Shown here piece by piece: positions 11,590 to 15,335 of a stretch of 35,131 nucleotides of DNA (position 1 is its first letter; the number at the start of each line of letters is the position of its first letter). The DNA is from Ktedonobacterales bacterium (GTDB taxonomy: Bacteria > Chloroflexota > Ktedonobacteria > Ktedonobacterales > JADMIN01). A model generated the notes under the pieces. That model was not told the origin of the DNA. It saw nothing but the letters and a program-made list of their open reading frames with translations, and did no database searches. Location of the stretch: positions 1-35,131 of the forward strand of contig JAICSR010000004.1 of the NCBI GenBank assembly GCA_025936795.1. The letters run 5' to 3'. Position numbers and translations under genes: made by a program.

Positions 11590-13881
11590 TTACGCCTGCT
11601 GGGGATGCAGCTGCGGGTTGGCGGCCTGGCGGACGATTGGCTCGCCGCTCGCCGTCACCTTCACCACATCACCCTCCACCGTCAGCGTGGCTGTTTGCCC
11701 TGGCTGCACCGTGCCAGCCAGCAGCGCATCAGCCAGCGTGTCATCCACGCTCGTCTGAATGGCCCGGCGTAGCGGTCGCGCGCCGAACTCTGGATCAAAG
11801 CCTACGCGCATCAGATACTCGCGCAGGTCGTCACCAAACGTCAGCTCAATGCCCTGCTCGCGCAGGCGCGCCTCAGACTGCTCCAGCAGCAGATCAACGA
11901 TCTGGCGCAGCTCGTCGCGACCCAGCGAGTGGAAGACGACGATCTGATCAATCCGGTTGATGAACTCAGGCCGGAAGGCGCGGCGCAGACCCTCCATCGC
12001 CTTGGCGCGCTTCTGCGCCTCGGCGCTGTCCTGCGCGTTCTCGGCGTCGCCCCACTTGCTGGGCATGAAGCCGATGTTCGCGCGGCGGATGTCTTCGCTG
12101 GCGGCGTTGCTGGTCATGATGATGACGGTGTTCTTGAAGTCTACCGTGCGACCCTGACCATCCGTCAGCCGCCCGTCATCCAGAATCTGCAAGAGCGCAT
12201 TGAAGACCTCAGGATGCGCCTTCTCGATCTCATCGAACAGCACCACGCTGTAGGGGCGTCGGCGCACCTGCTCGGTGAGCTGGCCGCCCTCGTCGTAGCC
12301 GACATAGCCCGGAGGGCTGCCGAACAGACGCGAGACCGTGTGGCCCTCCATATACTCAGACATATCCAGCCGGATCAGCGCATCCTGACTGCCGAAGATT
12401 TCAGCCGCCAGTGCACGCGCCAGCTCCGTCTTACCAACGCCCGTCGGCCCCATGAACAGGAAGGAACCAATTGGGCGGCGAGGGTCTTTCATCCCCGCGC
12501 GCGACCGACGAATCGCTCGCGCGACCGCGCTGATCGCCTCGTCCTGACCGATGACGCGCTTGTGCAGGTCACCTTCCAGGTTGATGAGGTTGGCGCGCTC
12601 CGACTCCAGCATCTGGCTCACCGGCACGCCGGTCCAGTTCTCGACCGCCTTCGCGATCTCCTCTGGCGTCACCAGCAGCGTTGGCGATCCCGCCGTCTTG
12701 CTCTGCGCCTCGTCCAGCCGCTCTTGCAGATGCAGCTCGCGCTGGCGCAGCTTCGCGGCCTTCTCATACTCTTCGGCCAGCGCAGCGGCTTCCTTCTGCT
12801 GTTGCAGCTCGGCCAGTTCGCGCTCTAGCTCGTGAACCGCCTCCGGGCCAATCAGCCCGCTCTCGATAGCCTCCAGCCGCAGCGACGCCGACGCTTCGTC
12901 CATCACGTCAATCGCCTTGTCGGGCAGGAAACGGTCGTTGATGTAGCGATCGGAGAGCTTCACAGCCGCCTCGATGGCCTCATCGGTGATGCTGACGCTG
13001 TGGTGCGCCTCGTAGCTGGGGCGCAAGATGCGCAGCATCGCGATGGCCTCTTCGACCGATGGCTCGCCAACCTTTACCGGCTGGAAACGCCGCTCTAGCG
13101 CCGCATCCTTCTCGATATGCTTGCGATACTCATCGAGCGTGGTTGCGCCGATGACGCGCAACTCGCCGCGTGAGAGCGCTGGCTTCAGCAGGTCAGCCGC
13201 GCCGACCGCGCCTTCCGCCGCGCCCGCCCCGACGACGGTGTGTAGCTCGTCAATGAAGAGGATCACCTCAGGATTCGCGCGTACCTCTTCGAGGATGTTC
13301 TTCACGCGCTCCTCAAACTGCCCACGGAACATCGCGCCCGCGACCATGCCGCCAATGTTGATGGCGACGATGCGCGCATCGCGCAGGCTCGGCGGCACAT
13401 TGCCCTCGGCGACACGACGGGCGATGCCCTCGACAATCGCCGTCTTACCGACGCCCGGCTCACCAATCAGCACCGGGTTGTTCTTCTGGCGACGACCCAG
13501 CACCGTCAGCACGCGGCGAATCTCACGCTCGCGGCCACTGGCCGGGTCCAGCTTGCCATCGCGCGCGTCCTGGGTCAGGTCGCGCCCGAACTGGTCAATC
13601 GTCGGAGTCTTGCTATGCTTGTTCGGCTCGCGCTGGGCAGTGGCTGCGGCTCCAGGCCGTCCAGCCCCCATCGGAGCGCCATTCGCATTGAGCATGCCGC
13701 CGCCGTTGAAGAACGAGTTGAACATGCTGCCGTAATCGGCGCCGCCAGACTCGGCATTCATCTGTCCGAGCAGCTCCTCAGCGCACTGACGGCAGTAAAA
13801 GTGCTGCTCACGACGACCATTCGTGACTGAGTTCAGTCGGACGCGGGCGTCGTTGACGTTGCAGCGCTCACATTTTTGCAT
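11590..13881 (-). CDS. clpE: ClpE-like ATP-dependent protease ATPase subunit with N-terminal zinc finger
   Basis: 763 residues. A Hsp100 unfoldase that would feed substrates to ClpP. The N-terminus has a C4 zinc finger (C4, C7, C30, C33) in place of the usual Clp_N repeats, followed by a Gly/Ala-rich linker, which is the ClpE arrangement. AAA-1 has Walker A GEPGVGKT (140-147) and Walker B ILFIDE (207-212). A short coiled middle domain with a UVR-like segment [13 protein letters not shown] (370-382) follows. AAA-2 has GPTGVGKT (478-485), VVLFDE (546-551) and an IGF tripeptide (603-605), the ClpP-docking type. ATG at 13881 has GGGGGA upstream. clpP is not in the window. I found no CIRCE or CtsR-like heptad repeats upstream. 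It is the next minus-strand gene after the dead TnpA homologue. Confidence 0.93.
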
Positions 13882-14047: not shown

Positions 14048-14515
14048 TCACTCCTCATCGCCAGCCGCCTCTTCACCTGAAGTCAACTGGACTTTCCTTG
14101 GGCGTCCACGCGGCTTGCGGGGCGGTTGCGCCGCCTCGAAGCGCTCGAACACCTCTGCTGCCGTCAGTTGATCGCCCGCCATCACCAGATAGGCGCGTGT
14201 CCACAGGGTCGGAATCCGTGTGAGTTCCGGGAACTCATCGCGCAAGATACGCGACGTGTGGGCCTTGATCTGGCAGACGATGCGATGTGGCGCGAGCGTC
14301 GGCGGCGCCGCCGCCACCAGGTAAACCCGGTCGGGCAGCACCATCACCAGCAGCGGATGAAACTCCACTGCGCTCGCGCGTTCTTCTATAAGCGCGCGTA
14401 GCCGCTCGGCCACCTCGCCGGTCAGACACGGCTTGGAGCGCATGGGACCCCAGACGAAGTGATACGTGATGCTCCACGCATCATCCGCGTCCTGTTGAAT
14501 ATTGTGTATATCCAT
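14048..14515 (-). CDS. Exapted IS200/IS605 TnpA homologue: active-site-null HUH domain with AT-hook
   Basis: 155 residues. The fold signature is that of Y1 HUH transposase TnpA: WSITYHFVWGPMRSK (14-28), VMVLPDRVYLVAAAPP (57-72), IVCQIKAHTSRILRDEFPEL (79-98) and LWTRAYLV (104-111). In active TnpA the third strand reads PDHVHL and the nucleophile is a Tyr in a KYIExQ-like helix. Here the two His are Arg63 and Tyr65, and the Tyr position is Phe126 (ERFEAAQ). All three catalytic residues are therefore missing. After the domain comes PRKPRGRPRK (132-141), a classic AT-hook, then an acidic tail. No tnpB and no element ends are seen. ATG 14515 is preferred (AGGTGA 5 nt upstream); GTG 14524 is the alternative. 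It precedes clpE on the same strand by 166 nt. DNA binding is inferred. Confidence 0.8.
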   Translation of the reverse strand: MDIHNIQQDADDAWSITYHFVWGPMRSKPCLTGEVAERLRALIEERASAVEFHPLLVMVLPDRVYLVAAAPPTLAPHRIVCQIKAHTSRILRDEFPELTRIPTLWTRAYLVMAGDQLTAAEVFERFEAAQPPRKPRGRPRKVQLTSGEEAAGDEE

Positions 14516-14531
14516 GTCACTCACCTACATA

Positions 14532-14561
14532 TTTATACCGCATTCCCGGACTGTACGTCAA
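14532..14561 (-). promoter_or_regulatory. Near-consensus sigma70-type promoter for the TnpA-like gene
   Basis: Minus strand: TTGACG (14556-14561), 18-nt spacer, TATAAA (14532-14537). The start codon at 14515 is only 16 nt beyond the -10, so the leader is very short. The remainder of the 14516-14909 gap holds an AT-rich patch at about 14600-14625 and the divergent promoter region annotated at 14770-14816. Confidence 0.75.
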
Positions 14562-14769
14562 GGGTTTCGGCGCCCAATCCTGTAGATTCGTCTGAGCGAT
14601 CTACACAATTTTATTGTACCGTATCTACGCCAGCGCATGGCGCCGGGTTGCGCGCCTGAGGGCGCGCCTGGGCGTTCAGCGTGCGAATCTTGCGCAACTC
14701 TAACACTGCCGCTCGGCGCGGAAGCCGCAACGCGCCAGCAGCCGAGCCGAATCAGCAGCGGCGCGTTGT

Positions 14770-15248: not shown

Positions 15249-15335
15249 GCGCTGCTCCATGCGCTGCTCCATGCCTGCTCACCCTCCGCGCCCGCGACGA
15301 ACACCTCCGAACACCTCCGAACACCTCCGAACACC
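15249..15335. repeat. Short tandem duplications in an intergenic region
   Basis: Two exact copies of a 12-bp unit GCGCTGCTCCAT (15249-15272) are followed by 3.6 exact copies of the 10-bp unit AACACCTCCG (15300-15335). The rest of the 15171-15534 gap, apart from the terminator, shows no gene and no clear promoter. Confidence 0.8.

Follow-up and report, generated by a model that had tools for sequence, protein, structure and literature searches.

On the minus strand of the window analysed here, which is the whole 35,131-nucleotide stretch of contig JAICSR010000004.1 from a Ktedonobacterales bacterium, a gene for an IS200/IS605-type transposase (TnpA) with a replaced active site lies directly upstream of a gene for a clpE-type Clp ATPase. 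The question raised by this locus is which role such a dead TnpA plays. We consider it likely that the dead TnpA is a domesticated, dedicated and autoregulating repressor of a tnpA-clpE operon; the comparative facts behind this proposal are shown, while binding and repression are inferred.

A Y1 protein without catalytic residues

The product of the minus-strand open reading frame is an IS200/IS605 Y1 protein. The mechanical ORF call extends from 14048 to 14524 (minus strand) with a GTG at 14524 as the first start codon. The ATG at 14515 is the conserved start, because G001 has an in-frame stop codon just upstream and the relatives align from the ATG. With this start the gene occupies positions 14048..14515 (minus strand) and codes for 155 amino acids, matching the residue numbering of a first-pass annotation which had been made from the sequence alone. 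In Pfam the only match above the cut-off is Y1_Tnp (PF01797, E 8.6e-18), and the CtsR domain PF05848 was not found. The protein also matches the NCBIfam equivalog transpos_IS200 with 69.5 bits (cut-off 55); with both matches above the cut-off, automatic annotation would therefore name it a transposase. In a profile search against the PDB the IS200/IS605 transposases rank first (2f4f with 3e-22, IS608 with 2e-19). An AlphaFold2 model calculated with a 12-sequence alignment as input has a mean pLDDT of 77, and the 29 best Foldseek matches of this model are all IS200/IS605 TnpAs. No TnpB-like ORF stands out beside the gene in the ORF list of the window, and no element ends were seen around it. 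The sole other Y1 gene of the genome (L001, G000, contig C288) retains the sequence DHVHL and is not closely related to the dead TnpA.

Where the HUH metal site (His-x-His) would be expected, codons 63-65 (14321..14329, minus strand) read Arg-Val-Tyr. Both histidines are missing in all 15 family members, being replaced by Arg/Tyr in 14 of them and by Ala/Phe in G006. At the position of the nucleophilic tyrosine the window protein has Phe126 (14138..14140, minus strand); nine members have Phe here and six have Tyr. This placement follows from the profile alignments to 2f4f and 2ec2. A gapless MAFFT alignment moves the tyrosine column one residue off Phe126, which we judge to be an artefact when set against the profile alignments. 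We prefer the profile placement because of the pattern E-V-h-x-x-[FY] and the Gln four residues further on. Among our structural comparisons is 2xo6, a crystal structure of a Tyr-to-Phe variant of the ISDra2 TnpA together with DNA.

The C-terminus carries the AT-hook PRKPRGRPRK (residues 132-141; 14093..14122, minus strand). Its GRP core, set within a basic, proline-rich stretch, is present in 15/15 members and the longer RGRP in 13/15, and no RGRP tail was found in any active relative examined. Thus the signature of the family is the lost HxH together with the AT-hook, and not the Arg/Tyr/Phe triad. The first-pass annotation was right about the Y1 HUH fold, about the missing tnpB and element ends and, for the window protein, about the three replaced residues and the AT-hook. 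As a mark of the family its triad holds only in part, since the loss of HxH is universal but the tyrosine is kept in 6/15 members.

Elsewhere in the order there are Y1 copies with single changes at catalytic positions (L027, L031 and L034; Tyr to Ser, Tyr to Asp, and D to A before the HUH). They carry no AT-hook and are probably cases of ordinary decay.

Conservation of the family and its pairing with clpE

The family comprises 15 members and a truncated 16th from the Ktedonobacterales and from another class of Chloroflexota. Within the class the close relatives in f1 and f2 genomes share 67-89% identity, and G006 has a more distant one at 47%. When 400 genomes of the phylum were scanned with a profile, G049, G061 and G078 joined the family; these three come from a different class, represented by seven genomes in the sample. 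The 16th member, in G016, is truncated where its contig ends, and its last codons including the AT-hook are found just upstream of clpE. Many of the sampled genomes are fragmented assemblies. Outside Chloroflexota the distribution was followed only by a scan for close relatives and in plasmid and phage collections. The record JAJPIU010000202.1 (L005) bears the title Proteobacteria bacterium; it is apparently identical with a contig of G012, a Ktedonobacterales relative, and the label is probably wrong.

All members have one copy per genome. They form a single clade with a support of 100/100, and the nearest outside rows in the tree are haloarchaeal TnpAs with intact HUH and 44-46% identity, although the outgroup sample was small. 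Pairwise dN/dS values (Nei-Gojobori) are 0.08-0.23, with synonymous sites being saturated in the more distant pairs. The dead TnpA is under purifying selection. In the plasmid and phage collections no match reaches 60% identity, and the ones we inspected are ordinary TnpAs with intact HUH; on these grounds we rejected mobile carriage of the dead TnpA.

The clpE-type AAA+ Clp ATPase of the window (11590..13881, minus strand) starts 166 bp downstream of the dead TnpA gene, and its product has an N-terminal CxxC zinc-finger-like segment, two AAA domains and a UVR motif. The synteny is invariant in the family: every member is located directly upstream of clpE and is co-directional with it. Within the class 44 to 173 bp separate the two genes; in the other class the gap is shorter, from a few base pairs to about 30. 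The other neighbours tested in the window are conserved in G015 only, and therefore the tnpA-clpE pair has been retained while its surroundings changed. In the sampled phylum a ClpE with the N-terminal segment is found in the dead-TnpA genomes and in family f4. Outside the f4 clade the dead TnpA is directly upstream in the same orientation at 16 of the 16 clpE loci that could be read, and none was found upstream of the f4 clpE genes.

Promoters and an operator-like inverted repeat

The proximal promoter P2 (14532..14561, minus strand) consists of a -35 box TTGACG (14561-14556) and a -10 box TATAAA (14537-14532) separated by 18 bp. Boxes of this type, 17-18 bp apart, are conserved in all 11 f1/f2 loci. 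Further upstream there is a putative -10 box TACAAT (14613..14618, minus strand) of a distal promoter P1, for which no clear -35 box was seen; a -10-like box is present at the same place in the f1/f2 loci.

Aligning the upstream regions revealed a duplicated inverted repeat which follows the -10 boxes and has the consensus AATTnTGTAGAT-N11-ATCTACAnAATT. In the window operator 1 (AATTG-TGTAGAT-N11-ATCTACA-GGATT) is located at 14576..14610 and operator 2 (AAATA-TGTAGGT-N11-ATATACA-CAATA) at 14500..14534, both on the minus strand, the latter covering the Shine-Dalgarno-like region and the ATG start codon. The halves, with AATTnTGTAGAT as half-site, are exactly 11 bp apart in the 28 extracted sites, which were taken automatically and include a few weak ones (G006 and the second G049 site). 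Each copy starts 2-7 bp past a -10 box. Two copies are present in each of the 11 f1/f2 genomes, spaced by 75-78 bp or, in G010, by 65 bp, i.e., about one helical turn less. G049, G061 and G078 have one copy each, right after the -10 box. In G006, the most divergent member, the operator is weak.

When two mismatches at most are allowed, a search recovers the pattern at the tnpA-clpE locus in 10/11 f1/f2 genomes, with one stray site at two mismatches; G011 escapes this search, its copies being more diverged. The chance expectation in the window is 0.00, and no shuffled sequence gave a match. The genome-wide statistics rest on pattern searches. To sum up, in the genomes carrying the dead TnpA the operator with its exact spacing is conserved and essentially confined to the tnpA-clpE locus.

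Operator 1 can fold, but operator 2 does not form a stable hairpin, and the pairing of the arms shows no clear conservation above the chance level (P 0.06 and 0.26). We favour recognition as duplex because conservation extends to the half-sites and their spacing, but not to folding or arm pairing.

The first-pass annotation had also proposed the TTGACG-N18-TATAAA promoter, which held, and an exaptation with selection for a non-transposition role, which is supported by the conservation, the dN/dS values, the synteny and the operator. Likewise, the suggested binding to AT-tract DNA and the link to clpE are supported by the conservation, the dN/dS values, the invariant synteny and the conserved operator, without any binding data. 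The idea that hairpin repeats of the genome are the targets is not supported, as the operator is essentially confined to the one locus. In the window, the 20 families of direct repeats that are largest offer nothing suggestive of hairpin repeats, being GC-rich and resembling coding sequence; repeat families other than the operator were sought in the window only. Three outcomes had been named that would have refuted the proposal, namely HxH and Tyr elsewhere in the protein, frameshifted decaying homologues or a dN/dS near 1, and none of them was met when the suggested homologue and synteny search, structure prediction and dN/dS calculation were run.

A tandem 10-base repeat, CGAACACCTC, is present in an intergenic part of the window (15298-15335).

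CIRCE at the clpE genes of the sister clade

The upstream regions of the f4 clpE genes score 13-17/18 for CIRCE, and a class-wide pattern search confirmed this for several f4 genomes, in which CIRCE precedes clpE by 100-280 bp. The operator is absent there, the best scores of 10-13/18 being at the level of shuffled sequences. Conversely, the dead-TnpA clpE loci reach only 9-11/18 for CIRCE, with the exception of 14 in G006, and on these scores we rejected CIRCE as the control of these loci (G006 excepted). In G006 (L048) a CIRCE-like box of 14/18, TTAGCAGACACATCTTGACATTGCTAA, upstream of the dead TnpA gene overlaps the proximal -35 box, which may reflect a mixed or intermediate condition.

Nearly all of the genomes compared here have HrcA. 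In 10 dead-TnpA genomes CIRCE adjoins hrcA, not clpE; therefore the HrcA/CIRCE system exists in these genomes, though not at clpE. CtsR was rejected as the regulator of clpE, since none of the 47 genomes of the class has a CtsR match.

In the ClpE tree the operator state and the CIRCE state are the two sides of one branch (99/95). We therefore infer a single switch, whose direction is not determined, and the contrast between dead TnpA and CIRCE consequently does not represent many independent events.

In some f4 genomes (G022:C13, G023:C2, G024:C2, G026:C3) clpE paralogues lie near one another and are preceded by several CIRCE boxes, and one clpE copy of G026 (C3:340236-342224) has internal stops.

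Proposed mechanism

In our model, a dimer of the dead TnpA would recognise the dyad, with the HUH-fold core reading TGTAGAT and the C-terminal AT-hook occupying the minor groove of AATT at each end of the operator. Sequences such as AATT are typical targets of AT-hooks. From its position immediately after the -10 boxes of the two tandem promoters, the repressor would block transcription of tnpA and clpE. Accumulating unfolded protein would then relieve repression and raise ClpE, perhaps by unfolding of the repressor itself or because the repressor is a substrate of ClpE. Characterised TnpAs bind single-stranded hairpins. Since they do so and operator 2 has no stable hairpin, recognition of duplex DNA by the dead TnpA would be a change of mode. 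We have no binding or expression data: binding of the operator by the dead TnpA, the dimer, the AT-hook contacts, co-transcription, repression as opposed to activation and the inducing signal are all inferred, and it remains possible that another protein binds the operator.

A bolder reading, towards which we lean only slightly, is that dead TnpAs with an AT-hook constitute an undescribed bacterial repressor family on the HUH/Y1 fold that acts on duplex operators and, in several Chloroflexota lineages, serves in place of HrcA/CIRCE as dedicated regulator of a Clp ATPase gene.

Alternative explanations

The best of the alternatives, which we nevertheless regard as unlikely, is that the operator belongs to an unlinked regulator and that the dead TnpA acts otherwise with ClpE, as adaptor, substrate or partner. 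The invariant pairing with clpE would also suit a protein partner, and in Firmicutes genes for adaptors are found next to clp genes. Against this, the operator co-occurs with the dead TnpA gene, is essentially confined to its locus and is missing at the f4 clpE genes, and the protein keeps a DNA-binding fold with an AT-hook.

Somewhat less probable is a post-transcriptional control in which the dead TnpA binds the transcript at operator 2 and blocks translation. Operator 2 does include the Shine-Dalgarno-like region and the ATG, TnpAs bind single-stranded hairpins and operator 1 can fold. However, operator 2 does not fold stably, the pairing of the arms is not significantly kept, and operator 1, being upstream of the proximal promoter, is therefore missing from that transcript. 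We rejected a hairpin or RNA mode on the first two points.

We hold it to be slightly less probable still that the dead TnpA is an activator working through the same operator. Binding is inferred from the site only and the sign of regulation is not shown, but the sites are downstream of the -10 boxes and over the expected transcription start, where repressors typically bind.

A decaying or still mobile insertion-sequence copy, for which one could cite the profile libraries that would name the protein a transposase and the sporadic damaged Y1 copies in the order, is practically ruled out by the open frames, the low dN/dS (0.08-0.23), the single copy, the conserved AT-hook and the position fixed across two classes.

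Comparison with known systems

A dead Y1 regulator protein was not found described in the open-access literature searched (most subscription papers were outside the search), and the operator-like inverted repeat in front of the gene is new here. With the IS200/IS605 TnpAs such as those of IS608 and ISDra2 (PF01797) the dead TnpA shares the fold, the profile match and the core motifs, and they are its top structural neighbours. It differs in lacking the HxH, in often having Phe for Tyr and in the added AT-hook tail. Moreover, it is a single copy fixed beside clpE without visible tnpB or element ends, and neither variable insertion sites nor several copies per genome, as expected of a mobile element, were seen.

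TldR is a protein of an IS200/IS605-type element that has become a transcription regulator (PMC13418256), like the role proposed here. It derives, however, from the TnpB side and is RNA-guided, whereas the dead TnpA descends from the TnpA side and its recognition of DNA is probably direct. CtsR is an operator-binding repressor of clp genes in Firmicutes (PMC12634643); the proposed role as repressor of a Clp ATPase gene is the same, but the families are unrelated. HrcA/CIRCE controls heat-shock genes through an inverted repeat, as proposed for our operator, but protein and operator both differ, and CIRCE occupies the clpE upstream region in f4.

If the proposal is true, an IS200/IS605 transposase itself, and not its TnpB partner, has been turned into a conventional-looking gene regulator, with the gain of the AT-hook and the loss of catalysis both readable in the sequence of the protein. 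It would possibly add a further control system of Clp proteostasis beside CtsR and HrcA, with clpE under one control system in one clade and under another in the sister clade. It would also serve as a warning that standard annotation, by an NCBIfam equivalog above its cut-off, will label a host regulator a transposase.

TnpA_REP proteins (RAYTs) are likewise domesticated Y1 proteins. Their active site is intact and cleaves REP hairpins, whereas the dead TnpA has neither a catalytic site nor a repeat family, and its structural match to 4er8 is weak. GTAG occurs in the DNA recognised by TnpA_REP/RAYT (PMC8266576). The same tetranucleotide is present in the operator half-site (14500-14534 and 14576-14610), which may be a coincidence.
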